Assembly: GCA_028718965.1 (NCBI GenBank)
Contig: JAQUKS010000008.1
Coordinates: 1 to 32,332, forward strand
DNA length: 32,332 bases
DNA from: Minisyncoccota bacterium
GTDB taxonomy: Bacteria > Patescibacteriota > Minisyncoccia > Minisyncoccales > CG1-02-41-26
Reading direction: 5' to 3'
Shown: positions 20,726 to 32,304 of the stretch, piece by piece
Numbering within the stretch: position 1 is the stretch's first letter
Layout: every line of letters begins with the position of its first letter
Made by a program: the position numbers and the translations under genes
The notes under the pieces: generated by a model
What the model saw: only the letters and a program-made list of their open reading frames with translations
Told to the model about the DNA's origin: nothing
Databases searched by the model: none

Positions 20726-20834
20726 AGCTGTGAGAGAACTTCGCACCATCATTCTAAGCGGGTGGAAATCATACGAACTGGATGCGGCCGTAGATATGAT
20801 GGAAGGTACGGCGCCGTTTAATATATTAGATTAA
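20718..20834 (+). CDS. Small ORF (38 aa), related to the small ORF at 11714
   Basis: MLRAVRELRTIILSGWKSYELDAAVDMMEGTAPFNILD; shared SY..D.AV.M....PF pattern. Confidence 0.35.
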   Translation: MLRAVRELRTIILSGWKSYELDAAVDMMEGTAPFNILD

Positions 20835-23800
20835 TTTTTCTCAGTAGGCACAGTTTCTTTGGGAGAAAGTAAATTACTAAACTCCGTATATCCTCGAGCT
20901 ATTAATCGATTTATTAACTCTTTTGCTTCGCTATGAGCAGTTTCCTCTTGAGATTGCAATGCAGAAGATAAAATATTGTTAATTTCATCTCTATGACCCA
21001 TAACAGCCCATCCAGGTTGATCGGCTAGGCTAATTTTACTTAGAATTTGGACAGTCTTGGTCGGGCTTGTCTTTACCAGCTCGGTTAATCGTTCTAATAC
21101 GAAATAGTCTGATTGTTGCTTTCTTCCAATTTCAAGAGCTTGTAAATATTGTTCAAAACTCCATTGGTCATCAAATCGACCAGAAGCAAACCACCATCCG
21201 AATGCCGATGCTTCTTCTTCATAATTTCCAGTATCAGTTGCAGACTTTATAACAGATAATCTATTATTCCAAAGTGCCTTGAATCGTTCTAAAATTTCTT
21301 TATCAAGTCCCTGATTTTCGCTCCTTAGGCTACGCCCAATAAAATCTAGAGCATGGCCCCTAATTTTGTCATCTGCATATTTCCAAAAATCATTAAGTAA
21401 ACTATCAGACAACTCAATTTTACCCCTACCATACTGAAGCATTAAATGTTCGGCTAAACGTTCATCTCTGTCAGTATACCTTCTTCGTTTCTGGTCGACT
21501 TTTCCTATATTTTTTATTGCTTCCAAATAACGCTCCCTCAAAATTTCGAATGGATCGTTGTAAACAGGAACATATAACATCATCGTATTCCAAGCAGCTG
21601 CGTATAATTCATTATCAAACTGACCAAGTGGCAAAATTTTGTTTAAATTTTCTAATGTCCAATCCCTATCTATAAGTAAAAGCCACGGGAAAAATCTCCC
21701 ATATACGGCACGAACAGCAACAGATGGATCACTTTCAGGGTCAAGATGCTCGTCTAGCACCGACTGCGCTTCTGGCATGTCAGTAAAATTAATTTTCAGG
21801 TTCTTGTCGCCAACTGATTCCTTTTCCTTACATCTGTAAACCCAGAGAGCATATTCGATCGTAGCATTAATCGCTTCACTGCGTGTGCAGTTAATTGCGT
21901 GCGTATATGCATCGTCACTGTTTTCCGCCCATTTCAAATCATCTTCAGGGGTGGGGTCTACATCATGAGTTATGGGTTCTATTATCTTCCATACTTCTTC
22001 TCGCAAGTTACAAGGAATAGTATTACTATTTGTACCTCTAGACATTAGTGAAACGATGGCTTTTCTTGTCCAACCCCAGTCTGGGTCTTGATCCATTATC
22101 TCGCCCTTCCTCCCTGGAATTTCTTTTTTCTGCTCTACTACCCAGGAACATAAAGTAAGCATTTTAGGCCAATCGAGCTCGTGGCCATTTTGGATTAGTT
22201 CATAAAAAGCTTGAATATAGGCCCTAACATAAGTCGGGTCTAGTCCCTTAAATTTCTCTGAAATACTATTAAAACGATCGGGATTTAATTTAATAGCTGC
22301 ACTCAGCTCACGTCCGAAACCTTCTTTAGTGGGCCCAAAACCGTGTTTTTCTTCTTTAGGTTCCCATGATTTAAGAACTTCTATCAATTCCTCGTCTTTC
22401 ATTTTGATTAACTCTTGCGAGTTGATATCACTTGTTGGCCCAACCCAACCAGTAGTCATATAGGAAGAAAAATCGGGATGTTCTGGTGAGCCATACTGTT
22501 TTACAAATCCATCATAACGATTTTTCCAATCATCTGGCAGGTCATTTTTTATATATGATAATTGATCTCTTTGCCAAGCCTCTCTGAAAGCTTTTTCTTG
22601 ATCCTCAGTAATTGTTGTTTCTTGCTTACGTTTATCCACGAGTTCGGCAATTTTTTCAGCTTTCTCAATCCAAGCCAAGATTGTCTGTTGTTCTTCTTTT
22701 GTTAAAAGATTAAAACCTTTATTCATTAACTGTGCCTGCTCGTGTTGAAATTCTGATTTATCGAAAAGAGATTCGTCTGTAAGATACTGAGCGACTAACT
22801 CTTTTGCGGAGTAAGGAAATTCGCTTAAGAAATAGATAGCTAACCTACGAAAAATATCCCATTTTCTATTTTCCAAAATAGAAACGAGAGAAGACAATAT
22901 GCTTGGATTATTTTTAATAAGTGCCAAACCAATATCACGAGCAGCTGTGATAAGTGAATTTTGAATATCATCACGATCGTGGTTTTGCTCGTGATCTTCT
23001 ATTGCGGGTCTTGAAATGTATGAATAGTCATTATATTTATCTTGATTTTCTTTACGTCCTTCATGTTTAAGTCTCAAATAATCAGCAAGTAAATCGCAAA
23101 TAAATTCAAAAGACCGTCCTAGATTAATTTTTACTAGTTCCCGAAATTCCTTTTTAAGGAATTCATTATAATGCCAATGTTCCAATCTCGTTTGAGGGTC
23201 TCTAGAGGGCAGATATCCATGGCTTTCCACAGCTGGTTTAGGATCTGGCAATATCTCTAAAAATATTTTTGCAATTTCAAATGCAGCATCTTCCTCATGT
23301 TCTTCGATGAATTTAATCATTAAATTACTTCCTGGATCAACTAATGTAAGCTGGAAAAAATTATGATCACTTTTCAACCAATCTTTTAATTTTTCCTTTA
23401 AATCAATTCTTTTTTCTTTTGGCAATTGAAGAGCAATTTTTAATAAACCGCTTTTAACATTTGAGTTGTCTGTGTCTTTTACTTCTTTAAGAATATCGGT
23501 AACAAGATCAGATTCTTGGGACGCAACTTTTTCCAAATACAAAGCGGCAGGCCAAGGTAAATGCCTTATCGTTCCTTCTTCTTGGTTATGTTCAGCCTGT
23601 GGCGGATCAGAAAATATTCCCTCTTTTTTTAACAATGATAACCATTTTGGATTTTCTAATTGACTAAAAAATCTTTGATGTGCAACAAGATTATTGGGTA
23701 TATGAAGATGTATAGTCTTTGCATCATCTGATGTCGGATCGTCCTTTTTGGCTAAGGCATCCAGGGTGTCAAAAACTTTTGTGTACTTACTCTCAAATTT

Positions 23801-24280
23801 ATCCAAAACATCATCTATAATCGACCCCATTTGAGACCAAAACTCCAGGAACTCTTTATTTATAATTCTTGCGGAATCAAGATTATGCCTATGAGCATGA
23901 CTATGTAAGCTATTATCTTTAGTAAAAGAAAGCCATGTTTTAGCAACTGGGTCTGAATCATCATACTCCAAGGCTTTTAATATTGCCTGAATATCTTGTT
24001 CATGCGCCCCATCTCCCTTTGGTTTATCTGTAGAACCAGTAAAAGTTCGAAGCACATCTCGCAAAGAACTCTCAACCTCTCTTAAAAGATGGCCTACAAT
24101 ATGCGTCGTTGCTTCAAATGGGGGTTGAACCACCATGTGTCTGCAAGCATCTTTGTAGAAAGCAGCAGCGCCAGGGCCGACTAGTCTGAACAAACGATCA
24201 TAAATTGGCTTTTGTTGTTCATTAAGTTTAAATGGCCCAGAAAGAGGATTGTTTTGTTTTGGAGTATCATTGTTGGTCAT
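20831..24280 (-). CDS. Large (1149 aa) protein of unknown function, predicted mainly alpha-helical
   Basis: Start reassigned to MTNNDTPKQNNPLSGPFKLNEQQK (ATG at 24280), because the longer ORF reads into the transposon end and tnpA; no catalytic motif recognised by eye. Confidence 0.85.
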   Translation of the reverse strand: MTNNDTPKQNNPLSGPFKLNEQQKPIYDRLFRLVGPGAAAFYKDACRHMVVQPPFEATTHIVGHLLREVESSLRDVLRTFTGSTDKPKGDGAHEQDIQAILKALEYDDSDPVAKTWLSFTKDNSLHSHAHRHNLDSARIINKEFLEFWSQMGSIIDDVLDKFESKYTKVFDTLDALAKKDDPTSDDAKTIHLHIPNNLVAHQRFFSQLENPKWLSLLKKEGIFSDPPQAEHNQEEGTIRHLPWPAALYLEKVASQESDLVTDILKEVKDTDNSNVKSGLLKIALQLPKEKRIDLKEKLKDWLKSDHNFFQLTLVDPGSNLMIKFIEEHEEDAAFEIAKIFLEILPDPKPAVESHGYLPSRDPQTRLEHWHYNEFLKKEFRELVKINLGRSFEFICDLLADYLRLKHEGRKENQDKYNDYSYISRPAIEDHEQNHDRDDIQNSLITAARDIGLALIKNNPSILSSLVSILENRKWDIFRRLAIYFLSEFPYSAKELVAQYLTDESLFDKSEFQHEQAQLMNKGFNLLTKEEQQTILAWIEKAEKIAELVDKRKQETTITEDQEKAFREAWQRDQLSYIKNDLPDDWKNRYDGFVKQYGSPEHPDFSSYMTTGWVGPTSDINSQELIKMKDEELIEVLKSWEPKEEKHGFGPTKEGFGRELSAAIKLNPDRFNSISEKFKGLDPTYVRAYIQAFYELIQNGHELDWPKMLTLCSWVVEQKKEIPGRKGEIMDQDPDWGWTRKAIVSLMSRGTNSNTIPCNLREEVWKIIEPITHDVDPTPEDDLKWAENSDDAYTHAINCTRSEAINATIEYALWVYRCKEKESVGDKNLKINFTDMPEAQSVLDEHLDPESDPSVAVRAVYGRFFPWLLLIDRDWTLENLNKILPLGQFDNELYAAAWNTMMLYVPVYNDPFEILRERYLEAIKNIGKVDQKRRRYTDRDERLAEHLMLQYGRGKIELSDSLLNDFWKYADDKIRGHALDFIGRSLRSENQGLDKEILERFKALWNNRLSVIKSATDTGNYEEEASAFGWWFASGRFDDQWSFEQYLQALEIGRKQQSDYFVLERLTELVKTSPTKTVQILSKISLADQPGWAVMGHRDEINNILSSALQSQEETAHSEAKELINRLIARGYTEFSNLLSPKETVPTEKN

Positions 24281-24289
24281 AATTTTTGG

Positions 24290-25029
24290 GAAAATGGGGT
24301 CAGCCACCATTTTTTGGCCTACCCACTCTACGCAACGTTTGTTCGAGGCCGAAATCTTTAACTGCCTTCTCCGCCCAGTCAATGTTGCCATACGGGCTGC
24401 TTTTGATTATTGAATTTTCAATTACTTCTTCTTCGTTAATGTTTTGATCTTGATTAACTAATAATAAATAGTTATCTGGAATATCAACTGGCCATTCTGA
24501 AAGAATAATCTTTTGTTCAGTTGTCCGTTTCTCTCTTCTGTAAATGCTTGACCATTGCCAATCTTGAGCAAGTTCGCACAAACCTGCCTTTTTTGCGTTT
24601 CTCTCCACGTAGCGGACTAGGGTTAAAAAATAGTTGTCTTTTTGACATAAAAAAGACTTGTACCTTCCTTGATACAAGTGCCCTTCTCCAATTGTTTTTT
24701 TAGTTGTATGCCACCTTCTTGTATGAGTATTTGAAAGCCAGCCCACAAATTTAGATAAATCACCATCCTGTTTTGGATGCACGATTAGATGCCAGTGGTT
24801 TGGCATAATACAATATGCTAAAAGGCGCATATCGAATCTTTCTATTGCTTGAGCGAGAATGCTTTCAAAAATTTTGTAATCTTGATCATTATCGAAAATC
24901 TGGACTCGAGCGTTGGCTCTATTTAACACATGGTACATTTCTTCACCAATATCTGTTCTTGTTATTCTCGGCATACGCCCATTATACCATGGCAACATAA
25001 ATCATTAAATGGTGGCTGACCCCATTTTC
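24290..25029 (-). mobile_element. REP-associated Y1 (IS200-like) transposon, about 740 bp
   Basis: Perfect 23-bp inverted repeats GAAAATGGGGTCAGCCACCATTT (24290-24312) and AAATGGTGGCTGACCCCATTTTC (25007-25029) around a Y1 transposase gene. Confidence 0.88.
24300..24974 (-). CDS. REP-associated tyrosine (Y1) transposase
   Basis: MPRITRTDIGEEMYHVLNRAN..., CIMPNHWHLIVHPKQDGDLSKF (HUH), HLYQGRYKSFL, LVRYVERNAKKAGL; stop codon lies inside the terminal repeat. Confidence 0.93.
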   Translation of the reverse strand: MPRITRTDIGEEMYHVLNRANARVQIFDNDQDYKIFESILAQAIERFDMRLLAYCIMPNHWHLIVHPKQDGDLSKFVGWLSNTHTRRWHTTKKTIGEGHLYQGRYKSFLCQKDNYFLTLVRYVERNAKKAGLCELAQDWQWSSIYRREKRTTEQKIILSEWPVDIPDNYLLLVNQDQNINEEEVIENSIIKSSPYGNIDWAEKAVKDFGLEQTLRRVGRPKNGG

Positions 25030-25686: not shown

Positions 25687-26487
25687 CTAAAGAATAGTAG
25701 TCACTTTCTCATATAACATCGGGAGAGCATCTTGTCTCATCCTAAATTTTGTTCCATGATTGTGACCAGTGCGTGCGTCAAAATCAACCAAAATTTTCCC
25801 TTCTTCCAATGCTTTTAAAAATCCCTCAAAACTAAACTTTTGCAACATCATTACCTTTGTGTAATGGTAAAGTTCTTTTTTTCTGACGATCTGTACTTCC
25901 GCTTGAACATAAAAAGCATTTAGCAATTTTGTACCGGCCTTATGTTCCAGGTCATCAAATCCCCAATATGGTTGAGGATCAAGTTCTCCTAAACCGACAC
26001 ACTTTTTAACTGACTCCAACCATGCTTTATGTCGCGAATCAACGCTTTTTGCGTCAAAAGAGATCAGAATCTTTCGTTCTTCACGATCAATAACCACTTT
26101 GAATCCACGGTCGCTTCTTGATTGTCCGTGGATCGTCTGCCTAAAGCTCATTTCACCTTTCGGATATTTCTTGCCGTCTTCCTGGTGGGCCCAACCATAT
26201 TTTGGCAAAAGTACTTGAGGCACAAACCGGATTGCCCGGGGCGACGGTTCAATATGAAAAAGCGTGGTCAAAGAAGTCGAATTTATCCTTTGTGCTTTCA
26301 GCTCCCATTCGGCAGCGTTAGGAATGGGTAAATTATTTTCTTTTATGCCGAGTAAATCTTCCAGCGTATTACCAACGCCACCGGCATTTCCTTTGCGGGC
26401 ATTAGGAATGAAACCCATCGTCGAAATCTCTTTAAGTTTCGCTATCAACTCTGGCTTCGTATAAGTTTTTGGTTTATTTTTTCTCAT
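25687..26487 (-). CDS. MvaI/BcnI-family type II restriction endonuclease
   Basis: KGNAGGVGNTLEDLLGIKENNLPIPNAAEWELKAQR resembles the MvaI/BcnI N-terminus and active site; adjacent methyltransferase. Confidence 0.8.
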   Translation of the reverse strand: MRKNKPKTYTKPELIAKLKEISTMGFIPNARKGNAGGVGNTLEDLLGIKENNLPIPNAAEWELKAQRINSTSLTTLFHIEPSPRAIRFVPQVLLPKYGWAHQEDGKKYPKGEMSFRQTIHGQSRSDRGFKVVIDREERKILISFDAKSVDSRHKAWLESVKKCVGLGELDPQPYWGFDDLEHKAGTKLLNAFYVQAEVQIVRKKELYHYTKVMMLQKFSFEGFLKALEEGKILVDFDARTGHNHGTKFRMRQDALPMLYEKVTTIL

Positions 26488-26492
26488 ATTAT

Positions 26493-27239
26493 TTATAAAA
26501 GTTTAGATTGTGCTTGATGTTGTTTTATCCTTTTTTTAGCCATATCGCAGTACTCAGGAGAAACGTCAATCCCAATGTAGCTCCGTTTAAAATTAATCGC
26601 GGAAACGGCCGTTGTACCGGACCCCATAAATGGGTCCAAAACGATTTTTGAATTAGTGGCAGAAATTATTCTATCAATTAAATTTACCGGAAAAGCGGCC
26701 GGATGTTCGTTGTTCATTTCTTGAGTAAACTCCCAAACATCACCATGCGCATTTGCCTTTACCGCAAGCTTGAATTTTGGTTTGGCGATCAGATAAATAA
26801 CTTCGTAAGTTGGCAAAAAATATCCGGCGTTAAAGTTTAGACCGCCTTTTCGTCTCCAAATAATAATCTGGCGAACCGGAAATCCGCTTACGATATCTTG
26901 CCGGTCCTGCAATAAACCACCCTGTACTCGCCACTTGTGGTTATAAAAAATGGCGCCGTCATCCGGAATTATTCTCAGCATTTCGTTCAGGCAATCTCTT
27001 TGCCACTTAACGTATTCGTTATGGGGCATGCAATCATCATGATGAGTGTATCCGTTTTGCAATGCGGCATTAGCCCATTTACCGCCACGCCCATCTTTCA
27101 TTCCGTTTCCAGTGGAATTTTTAAGATTGTATGGCGGAGAAGTAATAATCAAGTCAACGCTTCCGTCGGGAATCTTTTTCATGACGTTAACCGCGTCTCC
27201 ACAAATTATTTTATTCAAAAAATCTTTAGGGTATTTCAT
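26493..27239 (-). CDS. Site-specific DNA methyltransferase (TSPPY class, N4-C or N6-A)
   Basis: DLIITSPPYNLKNSTG and VLDPFMGSGTTAVSAINFKRSYIGIDVSPEYC. Confidence 0.93.
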   Translation of the reverse strand: MKYPKDFLNKIICGDAVNVMKKIPDGSVDLIITSPPYNLKNSTGNGMKDGRGGKWANAALQNGYTHHDDCMPHNEYVKWQRDCLNEMLRIIPDDGAIFYNHKWRVQGGLLQDRQDIVSGFPVRQIIIWRRKGGLNFNAGYFLPTYEVIYLIAKPKFKLAVKANAHGDVWEFTQEMNNEHPAAFPVNLIDRIISATNSKIVLDPFMGSGTTAVSAINFKRSYIGIDVSPEYCDMAKKRIKQHQAQSKLL

Positions 27240-28428: not shown

Positions 28429-28629
28429 ATGTTGCCCCCAGAAGCCATACAAGAATTCAAAGAATTATACGAAAAACGCTACGGCGTAAAGCTTTCCGAC
28501 GAGGAGGCGTCTTTGCGCGCCAACAATCTTTTTAAACTCTACAAAATCACCTATATGGGTGAGCCGTCCATCGACGACTTCAAAGATAAAGTAGTGAAAA
28601 GCCATGACTTACAACCAAATCACAATTAG
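28429..28629 (+). CDS. Small hypothetical protein
   Basis: 66 aa, MLPPEAIQEFKELYEKRYGVKLSDEEASLRANNLFKLYKI; overlaps the next gene. Confidence 0.55.
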   Translation: MLPPEAIQEFKELYEKRYGVKLSDEEASLRANNLFKLYKITYMGEPSIDDFKDKVVKSHDLQPNHN

Positions 28630-28915
28630 CGAAATCCAATTCTATCCGGTCAAACCCAAGGACGGCCTCCTCGGGTTCGTTTCGTTTGTCCTGGACGATA
28701 AGTTTTGGATGGGATTGGTGGCCGTGTTCAGCCGGCCGGACGGCCGATACCGCCTGGTTTACCCCACACGCAAAGTGGGAGGCCAGAACATCAACATCTT
28801 TCATCCTATAACCCAACAAGCCGGCCAGGAGGTCGAAACGGCCGTCAGTGAAAAAGTAGCCGAATTACTTAGTGAAAATTATGAATCAGACGAACCAACC
28901 CAAACCACGTGGTAA
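28604..28915 (+). CDS. SpoVG-like protein
   Basis: ITISEIQFYPVKPKDGLLGFVSFVLDDKFWMGLVAV..NINIFHPITQQAGQEVETAVSEKV resembles the SpoVG fold and motif order. Confidence 0.65.
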   Translation: MTYNQITISEIQFYPVKPKDGLLGFVSFVLDDKFWMGLVAVFSRPDGRYRLVYPTRKVGGQNINIFHPITQQAGQEVETAVSEKVAELLSENYESDEPTQTTW

Positions 28916-29315
28916 AAGCTTAAACTTCTTTCCCGCACCACACATTATCTACGACGATGAAAAACTGCGTCGCGCTTTGACTCATGCCGAACGCGATTTT
29001 TTATTGGCCCTAAGCCACCTCACCAATCGCTACGGCGACACCGACGGCTGGTTCTGGCATACCGATAACATCTTCGTCGGCCGGGACGACAAAGAGAAAG
29101 GGTTTGCTGCTCTGGGATTCGGCCGGTCAACCTGCCGGCGCGTTAGAAAAAGATTACTGGAACTCGGGCTTATAGAAATGAAACCTGGAACGCTGGAACG
29201 CGGCCGCTGGGCTGGCACGATGTATCGGCTTAATCCACGATTGCTAAAAACGACGGGGGTTCAAAATGGAGCACGGTCAGGCACCATAGAGAACCCAGGC
29301 CCGGGTCCACCATGA
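28881..29315 (+). CDS. HTH protein resembling replication-initiator / replisome-organizer N-termini
   Basis: LTHAERDFLLALSHLTNRYGDTDGWFWHTDNIFVGRDDKEKGFAALGFGRSTCRRVRKRLLELGLIE. Confidence 0.6.
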   Translation: MNQTNQPKPRGKSLNFFPAPHIIYDDEKLRRALTHAERDFLLALSHLTNRYGDTDGWFWHTDNIFVGRDDKEKGFAALGFGRSTCRRVRKRLLELGLIEMKPGTLERGRWAGTMYRLNPRLLKTTGVQNGARSGTIENPGPGPP

Positions 29316-29408
29316 AGCACTTAGTAATAAGGATTGAATAAGAAAAAAGAATTAATAAAAGAGCTTAAATAAAGCAAGCAAGCTTGCTGAAAATTAAAAA
29401 AATATGGG

Positions 29409-29659
29409 TTGGATGAAAGTTGGATAAAACTTGGATGGATTTCACCCTATGCTAATGGCGGACAAAGGCGGATAAAAAGCGGACAGAAAACGTGGGCAAA
29501 GTGTGGGTGAAATGTGGGCAGATTTCAGAGATAACGATGGCGACCAAAGGCGACTGAAAGGCGACCAAAAAAACAGGTATTAGGTTGGATAAAACTTGGA
29601 CAAAACTTGGATGAATTCGTAGAAAACCGACTGGGGCAAAACTGGGGTGAAACTGGGGC
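29409..29659. repeat. Array of 18 units (about 11 bp) in six triads, each triad with its own core word
   Basis: Core starts: TTGGAT 29409/29420/29431; GCGGAY 29458/29468/29479; GTGGGY 29492/29503/29514; GGCGACY 29539/29549/29560; TTGGAY 29585/29596/29607; CTGGGGY 29631/29642/29653. Confidence 0.9.
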
Positions 29660-29786: not shown

Positions 29787-30659
29787 ATGAACAAAACTAT
29801 GACTAAAAACGCCAAAATTTACGCCGTAATCGCCGTTGTAGCGGTTCTTGGGGCCGGTTACGGAGTTTATCACCTCTTAGGCAACAATGCACCGCGTGGG
29901 GCCGAAACAGCAGACCTGGCCTCCATTACTAATTTCGACCAGTGCGTCGAAGCGGGATTTGCCATCATGAAATCCAATCCCGAACAATGCATGACTTCCG
30001 ACGGCCGGACTTTCGTCAATGAAAAACCGCCGGTCCAAAGCGAACTGGATAAAGCCGAGCAAGCGATCCGGACTTTCATGGGAGAGCCGAATCTGGAACT
30101 GAAATATACCGGCCAGAATAATCATCCCTCCAACTTCGCGGTCTTGAGCAACGTCAAACAAAACGACGGCGGATTCACGGCCGACAATCCGAAAGAATGG
30201 GATCGGCCGGTATATCTCTTCCAGCAGACGGATTACATTAACGACCGCTGCGAAGTTTATCAATATCAGGTAACGCAGAAAACGAATCAGGTCGTGGAAA
30301 TCGGAATCGTCTATCCGATCGAACGCAACGCCACTATCCCGGGCAATTGCTCCGGCAACGGCTCGCTGGACTGGCCCTTAATGAGCAAAAACGAAATCGA
30401 ACAGGCCGCGTTCGCGTATCTCGGACGTGATCCGGAACATACTAAATTCATGATGAGGTCAGACATCCAGCCACAATATATCCCGAGCAAACCCGGAGCG
30501 GAAAATCCGGCGGCCAACGAATGGCGCTGGGAGGATACGAGCTACAAACTTCCGGAAGGGCTAATGGGCGATCCCTGGCCTTATCCGACCATGAGGATAA
30601 TAATGTCGGCCGGTGGCAAACTGGTTTACTACCTGAACACCACCGAACTCTTTGACTAA
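29787..30659 (+). CDS. Membrane-anchored extracytoplasmic hypothetical protein
   Basis: N-terminal TM; FDQCVEAGFAIMKSNPEQCMTSDGRTFVNE motif. Confidence 0.7.
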   Translation: MNKTMTKNAKIYAVIAVVAVLGAGYGVYHLLGNNAPRGAETADLASITNFDQCVEAGFAIMKSNPEQCMTSDGRTFVNEKPPVQSELDKAEQAIRTFMGEPNLELKYTGQNNHPSNFAVLSNVKQNDGGFTADNPKEWDRPVYLFQQTDYINDRCEVYQYQVTQKTNQVVEIGIVYPIERNATIPGNCSGNGSLDWPLMSKNEIEQAAFAYLGRDPEHTKFMMRSDIQPQYIPSKPGAENPAANEWRWEDTSYKLPEGLMGDPWPYPTMRIIMSAGGKLVYYLNTTELFD

Positions 30660-30660
30660 T

Positions 30661-32244
30661 ATGAACCAGGAAGTACAACCAAAACTCAAGTACTTCCTCT
30701 ACGCTCGCAAATCTTCAGAACAAGAAGACAGACAGGTCCTTTCAATCGATTCGCAAAAGAGCGAGCTGGAAGCGCTTGCAAAAAGAGAACGTCTCCACAT
30801 CGTGGAGCGCCTGGAAGAATCATATTCAGCCAAAGCGCCGGGACGCGAAATCTTCAACCAGATGATCAAACGGATAGAGAAAGGCGAAGCCGAGGGCATA
30901 ATCGCCTGGCATCCCAACCGCCTTTCCCGAAATTCCGTGGACACCGGCTACCTGGTTTATCTCATGGACCAGAACCGGCTTTTGGAAATTCACACGCCCG
31001 GCCAGACGTTCAAAAATACTCCCAACGACAAATTCCTGCTCAACCTGCTTTGCAGTCAGGCCAAGCTGGAAAACGACAACAAAGGCATAGACGTCAAACG
31101 CGGGCTAAGGCGCAAAGTGGAAATGGGCTGGCATCCCGGGCCGGCGCCAGTCGGCTACAAAAACACGCCCGATAAATTAAAAGGTTTTCGCACGATCCGT
31201 AAAGACCCGCGAATGTTTCCGATTATCCGGAAAATGTTTGATATGCTTTTAAGCGGCGACTTTACCGCTCCCCGGGTGCACGAAATCGCGGTTGAAAAAT
31301 GGGGTTTGAAAAACCTGGCGCGTAGCGGCTACTACCGCCTGCTTTACAATCCCTTTTATTACGGCTGGTTTGAGTGGCCCAAAGGCTCAGGCAACTGGCA
31401 TAAAGGCAAGCATGAACCGATGATCACGCGCGACGAATACGACCGCGTTCAGAAAATGCTCGGGCATGGGAGTAAGCCCAAACCGGAAACGCACACCTTC
31501 GCTTACACCGGCATGATCCGTTGCGGCGAGTGCGGCTGCATGGTAACGGCCGAAAACAAAATTAAGAAAAACAAAAACGGCAACGTCCATCACTACACGT
31601 ATTATCACTGCACCAAACGCAAAGGCCCGTGCAGCCAGAAATGCATCGAAGTGAACGAGTTGGAAAAGCAGATTAAAAAGACGTTGGCCAAAGTCCAACC
31701 GCCGGAAGAATTCCACGGCTGGGCCATGAAGTGGCTTAGAAACGAAAATGAGCGTGAAGCCGGCGACAGAAACGCCATTCTTTCCAACCAACAGAAAAAC
31801 TACGAAACCTGCGTCAAAAAGCTGGACGCTTTGATAGATATGAGAGCGTCAGGAGAAATAAGCGAGGAAGAATTCAAGAAAAAGAAATCGGAAATCGGCC
31901 AGGAAAAAATCAGACTGCACGAATTATTGAACGATACTGACAACCGCGTGGACAGCTGGCTCCAGACGGCCGACAACGTTTTGACCTTCGCCGGCGACGC
32001 CAACGAAGCGTTCACCGAAAGGGGCCAACACGCCCGAAAAGTGATTCTCTCCGCCTTAGGTTCGAACCTCCTCTTACAAGACAAAAACATAAGAATTGAC
32101 ACGGATTCCGCGCTTCTACCCCTGATTCTTGTCTCATCCGGGTCGAATCGGAAAAACGGACGGTTAGAACCTGTCGAAACGGGCTCTAATAAAGAGAAAA
32201 GCCGAGCTTTTAACTCGGCAAATCCCATGTGGCTCCGGAGGTAG
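30661..32244 (+). CDS. Large serine recombinase (resolvase N-terminus, recombinase domain, zinc ribbon, coiled coil)
   Basis: YFLYARKSSEQEDRQVLSIDSQKSEL, IIAWHPNRLSRNSVDTG, CGECGCMVTAENKIKKN...YYHCTKRKGPCSQK; 3' end lies inside the tRNA gene. Confidence 0.93.
   Translation: MNQEVQPKLKYFLYARKSSEQEDRQVLSIDSQKSELEALAKRERLHIVERLEESYSAKAPGREIFNQMIKRIEKGEAEGIIAWHPNRLSRNSVDTGYLVYLMDQNRLLEIHTPGQTFKNTPNDKFLLNLLCSQAKLENDNKGIDVKRGLRRKVEMGWHPGPAPVGYKNTPDKLKGFRTIRKDPRMFPIIRKMFDMLLSGDFTAPRVHEIAVEKWGLKNLARSGYYRLLYNPFYYGWFEWPKGSGNWHKGKHEPMITRDEYDRVQKMLGHGSKPKPETHTFAYTGMIRCGECGCMVTAENKIKKNKNGNVHHYTYYHCTKRKGPCSQKCIEVNELEKQIKKTLAKVQPPEEFHGWAMKWLRNENEREAGDRNAILSNQQKNYETCVKKLDALIDMRASGEISEEEFKKKKSEIGQEKIRLHELLNDTDNRVDSWLQTADNVLTFAGDANEAFTERGQHARKVILSALGSNLLLQDKNIRIDTDSALLPLILVSSGSNRKNGRLEPVETGSNKEKSRAFNSANPMWLRR
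32201..32219 (-). terminator. Terminator of tRNA-Asn
   Basis: GCCGAG-n7-CTCGGC; minus strand followed by TTTTCTCTTT. Confidence 0.65.
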
Positions 32245-32304
32245 GACTCGAACCTACAACCAACTCGTTAACAGCGAGACGCTCTACCATTGAGCTACTC
32301 CGGA
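32230..32304 (-). tRNA. tRNA-Asn(GTT), with encoded CCA
   Basis: Minus strand TCCGGAGTAGCTCAATGGTAGAGCGTCTCGCTGTTAACGAGTTGGTTGTAGGTTCGAGTCCTACCTCCGGAGCCA; acceptor TCCGGAG/CTCCGGA, loop CTGTTAA. Confidence 0.95.

Follow-up and report, generated by a model that had tools for sequence, protein, structure and literature searches.

An array of putative small-terminase recognition sites with several words in a phage-satellite-like element of Patescibacteria

The window analysed here, a stretch of 32,332 nucleotides, covers the end of an element integrated in a 0.87-Mb Patescibacteria genome and carries an array of six triads comprising 18 units in total (Table 1). Our results suggest, with a probability of roughly three in four, that this array consists of tandem recognition sites (pac- or cosB-like) for the small terminase, TerS, that these sites resemble the terS-internal sites of several phages, and that the element carrying them is phage-satellite-like and could be packaged by several helpers. 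Each triad would offer the TerS of one helper lineage its specific word three times, at intervals of one helical turn; the bound TerS would recruit the large terminase of the same helper, and the loading of satellite DNA into helper particles would then start. The presence of several words would allow one satellite to exploit several helpers, and the blocks of the array may have been captured from terS genes. All of this, from TerS binding and the initiation of packaging to the use of several helpers and the capture of blocks, is predicted here from sequence comparisons.

The array and the element that carries it

The array is a real and unusual feature. Six triads are present in a 300-bp region in which 2000 dinucleotide shuffles gave a mean of 0.003 and a maximum of 1, no triad is found in the remaining window, and a search of the window's own genome did not retrieve a second array. 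All triads run in the same direction, and their units are separated by 11 and 11 bp, apart from a 10-bp first step in B and in D. The last core base runs C-T-C in B, C, D and F, T-C-T in E and T-T-T in A, while the linkers GATTTCA and TGGCG are common to block pairs. These observations confirm an earlier note, made from the letters of the sequence, in its description of the 18 units, of the words changing from block to block, of the shared linkers and of the alternation of the last core base in B to F; its reading of the region as a binding array of several specificities, acting at the DNA level and located on a mobile element, also appears to be right.

Table 1. Features of the window, with the best terS match of each triad
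Feature	Position	Strand	Evidence or remark
Dsr1-type defence gene, probable cargo	20831..24391	-	PADLOC 3.7e-56
Type II restriction-modification pair (MvaI/BcnI-like nuclease, N6_N4 methylase), probable cargo	25687..27239	-	Pfam, PADLOC
SpoVG-like protein	28604..28915	+	Pfam PF04026, 5e-7
HTH protein, probable replication initiator	28881..29315	+	PHROG 270 replication initiation protein 1.8e-4, weak O-like match; conserved in relatives
Small conserved hairpin GCTTAAATAAAGC, 5' of array	29363..29375	+	In relatives with and without array
Triad A, TTGGAT x3 (11,11)	29409..29437	+	Best match terS triad of phage contig L175, 30/39
Triad B, GCGGAY x3 (10,11)	29458..29485	+	Weak best match terS of L019, 24/37; next best 23
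Triad C, GTGGGY x3 (11,11), AGATTT tail	29492..29525	+	Best match terS of L249, 29/39
Triad D, GGCGACY x3 (10,11)	29539..29566	+	Best match within terS of L019, 31/37
Triad E, TTGGAY x3 (11,11)	29585..29613	+	Best match terS of L175, 28/40
Triad F, CTGGGGY x3 (11,11)	29630..29659	+	Best match terS of L169 (same contig as L150), 30/40
290-aa protein	29787..30659	+	Conserved across element family
Large serine recombinase (integrase)	30652..32244	+	Pfam Resolvase/Recombinase; PHROG 95 integrase 4e-65
tRNA at element end	32233..32304	-	Rfam; tRNA-Asn at same position in five relatives (ARAGORN)

Among the ORFs of 20.8-32.2 kb, no capsid, portal, large terminase or other structural gene was detected with Pfam and PHROGs, and profile searches of the window and of L011-L017 found no TerS ORF. 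A repeat search did not recover attachment-site repeats, and no relatives of the HTH protein or of TerS were retrieved from the plasmid and phage record collections. With regard to the features by which PICI-like elements are recognised, an integrase with a specific attachment site is represented by the serine integrase, whose ORF terminates within the tRNA gene, and a packaging module is represented at the sequence level only, by the terS-like triads and by the terS of sister elements. The integrase C-terminus is encoded inside the 3' end of the tRNA gene (32210-32244; NPMWLR in several relatives), so that the attachment site provides the last integrase codons. In a genome of the same genus, the tRNA region matches as two parts about 240 bp apart (G002:C28:3052-3367), and a second partial copy of the 5' half of the tRNA lies on the window's own contig (G000:C8:32530-32575); an intron or an earlier insertion is possible.

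Other small features surround the array. Where the HTH gene ends (29266-29345), there are degenerate repeats around ACCAT..GAACC, which recur in relatives and are candidate iterons or a candidate operator; they are followed by a short ORF (MKHLVIRIE), a candidate leader peptide. The hairpin located 5' of the array reads GTCTAAATAAGAC in L002, a compensatory change with respect to GCTTAAATAAAGC, and the similarity of L016 to the window stops exactly at this hairpin.

An array occupies the same slot at eight loci (the window, L002, L011-L015 and L017), with different triads and different numbers of them. The words of L002 are TGCACY, TTGGAY, TGTGACY and ATCGGT, and L014 has one GGGY triad only. 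The number of units also varies, with two-unit blocks in L017 and a one-unit block in L013; three units per block are therefore typical and not fixed. The array is absent in L016, L018 and L003, the contigs of the last two stopping just past the start of a terS, and in the sister elements L249, L155 and L019 the slot is occupied by a terS gene. In L019, a GGCGACY triad lies within the gene found at the slot, which is a small terminase (PHROG 6299).

This distribution bears on the function proposed in the earlier note, a replication origin made of iterons with different words and bound by the adjoining HTH initiator. The vicinity of an initiator-like gene and the 11-bp phasing speak for an origin, but L249, L155 and L019 keep the initiator gene without any free-standing array, their triad being found only inside terS, and the words match the terS of phages, genes that have no such initiator alongside. 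Moreover, the degenerate repeats that close the initiator gene are more plausible as iterons. In an iteron origin, one repeated word would be kept wherever the initiator is kept; here there are several words, and the array is absent in these three sisters. We consider an origin function very improbable.

Related elements differ in their defence cargo at the same place (L011 112-4159 and L017 835-3647), which includes type II restriction-modification and an EcoRI-type methylase with an AlbA-domain protein. The DNA of the HTH region is about 75-78% like that of the window's element in L016 (WWE3) and in L014/L015 (Parcubacteria-type), which belong to distant Patescibacteria groups; this likeness suggests wide transfer.

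Triads inside terS genes

The TerS homologues match PHROG 6299 (1.6e-7 to 2.3e-10) and, on phage contigs, adjoin a GpA-type large terminase. Their predicted fold (pLDDT 79, pTM 0.48) matched no solved structure, and the name TerS therefore rests on PHROG 6299 and on the place beside TerL. Related phage and prophage terS genes contain one triad each, with a word particular to the gene, in the part that codes for the spacer of the DNA-binding domain. Such triads were found in terS of phage contigs and of Patescibacteria genomes, at the same place in L145-L148, L150, L152, L154, L173-L176, L178, L179, L181, L193 and L155, with words such as TTGGGY, TTGGAY, CTTCACY, TACACC, TGGTC, TCGGY, ATCGGY, CTTCAGY and CTATACY; in a few (L145, L154), only two good units are left. 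Since 11 is not divisible by three, no corresponding repeat is visible in the protein.

The words of a terS triad resemble one another much more closely than the coding of the protein would demand. When units were fixed by protein alignment in 16 terS, the within-gene word match was 4.35 of 6, as against 2.64 for units dealt among genes, and none of 20000 shuffles reached it (p=5e-5). A set of ten more distinct genes gave the same result, and six new terS from a later genome search had a within-gene match of 4.44 versus 2.21. Resampling of synonymous codons gave single-gene p values from 0.002 to 0.7 and a Fisher combined p=1e-7 over 20 terS, which is an overstatement given that some of these genes are related. 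The triads thus show two properties of a TerS site, namely their location in phage terS and a constraint at the DNA level beyond that of the protein.

The words also covary with the protein. The distance between words correlates with the distance between TerS recognition helices (r=0.65, p=4e-4) and still does so when C-terminal divergence is allowed for, while the correlation with the C-terminal part of TerS itself is not significant (r=0.07); since the codons of word and helix lie close to each other, joint inheritance could contribute to the former correlation. The residue two positions before the helix tryptophan, as scored by eye, is acidic (E/D) in 9 of the 9 TerS with words ending in GGY and in 0 of the 7 others. 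This rule was set down before new genes were seen, and in these, scored by hand, it gave 3/3 versus 0/5; the triads of L275 and L280 are irregular.

Viral contigs were also scanned. No exact TTGGAY triad was found in them, because terS copies are less regular. A scaffold pattern scan gave 119 matches, judged to be mostly chance, no second array was left after a repeating-word filter, and a repeated TerS scan returned nearly all the same contigs.

Array blocks and their terS counterparts

We compared 13 blocks from five elements with 577 kb of DNA from phages and elements, on both strands. For 12 of the 13, the best ungapped match was a sense, in-register terS triad. The sources differ between blocks: in addition to those of the six triads of the window (Table 1), L002_2 matched L175, as did A and E, L011_1, L014_1 and L017_F matched L180/L169, L002_3 matched L168 and L002_4 matched L154; L019, L249 and L250 in this set are sister elements and not phages. 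The margin over the next match was large for most blocks and small for B and L002_4 (24 vs 23 of 37), and B (GCGGAY) had no convincing terS partner in the 577 kb. The thirteenth block, TGCACY, had no best whole-block match in terS, and the word itself is present in the terS of L274. Words in the array are more regular than those in terS (4.89 vs 4.15 of 5, p=4e-4, with the array units set by eye), as expected if coding limits were lifted while binding was kept.

This regularity also concerns the idea that the region is former coding DNA. The earlier note offered as an alternative that it could be a decayed repetitive linker of the upstream initiator, as a plus-strand frame remains open (LGQNWGETGAAF). 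A coding echo does exist, and it is one of TerS (compare VGQLLGETGVDF of a phage) rather than of the initiator. The array could accordingly be the relic, with no present role, of a former terS or of several terS fragments, considering that frames still echo TerS (VGQSLGETWADF and LGQNWGETGAAF) and that TerS-carrying sister elements exist. Nevertheless, several words from different terS lineages are combined within one array, its words are more regular than the coding ones, the triads alone survive while the rest of terS is gone, and they are kept among elements whose neighbouring DNA is about 75-92% identical. Decay without function seems to us quite improbable.

The main rival to packaging is that the triads serve as decoys, titrating the TerS of invading phages and blocking phage packaging without packaging the element itself. 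The same matches to the TerS sites of several phages would then be expected, the element carries anti-phage defence genes, and interference with the packaging of helpers is a known property of satellites (PMC5052747). A decoy, however, would not need a uniform direction of its triads, one copy per specificity would make a weak sink, and it is a whole terS, not a decoy, that lies in the same slot of sister elements. Interference and packaging may also coexist. On balance, a purely decoy function is unlikely, and TerS sites used for packaging remain our preferred interpretation.

With respect to possible helpers of the window's host, terminase searches gave no match in its own genome. Across 243 genomes of the order, three large terminases were matched, all in other genomes, and the TerS profile had no clear match beside them. 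A cosN-like nick motif common to phages and elements was not found.

Comparison with known satellites and packaging sites

Two packaging solutions are known in satellites, which encode their own TerS or carry the cos/pac site of the helper (PMC5052747; PMC6092414). The simplest reading is that this element family uses the helper-site route, with several words at once. The window's element resembles PICIs and SaPIs with a helper site (cos-SaPIs such as SaPIbov5, and EcCICFT073) in its integrase and cargo, in a probable initiator and in the lack of capsid genes detected among the ORFs scanned, as well as in having a putative helper packaging sequence in place of terS (PMC5052747; PMC6092414). 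In contrast to the one or two cos sites of described elements, several different putative TerS words are arrayed here; the two cos sites of EcCICFT073 were both tested with the lambda-like phages lambda and phi80 (PMC5052747; PMC6092414). The terS in the slot of L249, L155 and L019 recalls the pac-type SaPIs that encode their own TerS, whereas the window's element has the array instead.

Among phage packaging sites, lambda cosB contains three TerS sites, R3, R2 and R1 (PMC9026076), and the present system would share this number per packaging site, together with a GpA-type large terminase. The units described here differ in running in the same direction at 11 bp, in lying inside terS and not beside it, and in that no cosN was found. 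In lambda, one R3 base pair is linked with a glutamate in the recognition helix of TerS (PMC9026076), a parallel to the acidic residue associated with GGY words in the present family. In SPP1 and SF6, pac, a site with direct repeats, overlaps the beginning of the gene for the small terminase (PMC4737164), which is similar in that the site is at or in terS; nevertheless, the repeats and the TerS family are different, and the site here encodes the spacer of the DNA-binding domain.

We lean towards a broader proposition, in which a satellite would gather, as exchangeable modules, the sites at which different phages initiate packaging, forming a heritable and readable list of helpers, and in which the phage site would be written in the spacer codons of the same DNA-binding domain by which it is read, following a simple residue-to-base rule. 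In the literature searched, which included few subscription papers, we did not find several phages' packaging sites arrayed in one satellite. SF6 TerS shows little DNA specificity (PMC4737164), and DNA recognition by small terminases is so far poorly defined; the more than 20 pairs of TerS and site with varying words gathered here are suited to working it out. If the interpretation is true, the multi-word TerS array would give a direct, sequence-readable answer to what fixes the helper range of a satellite, and the helpers of the elements of hard-to-culture Patescibacteria would be predictable from sequence.
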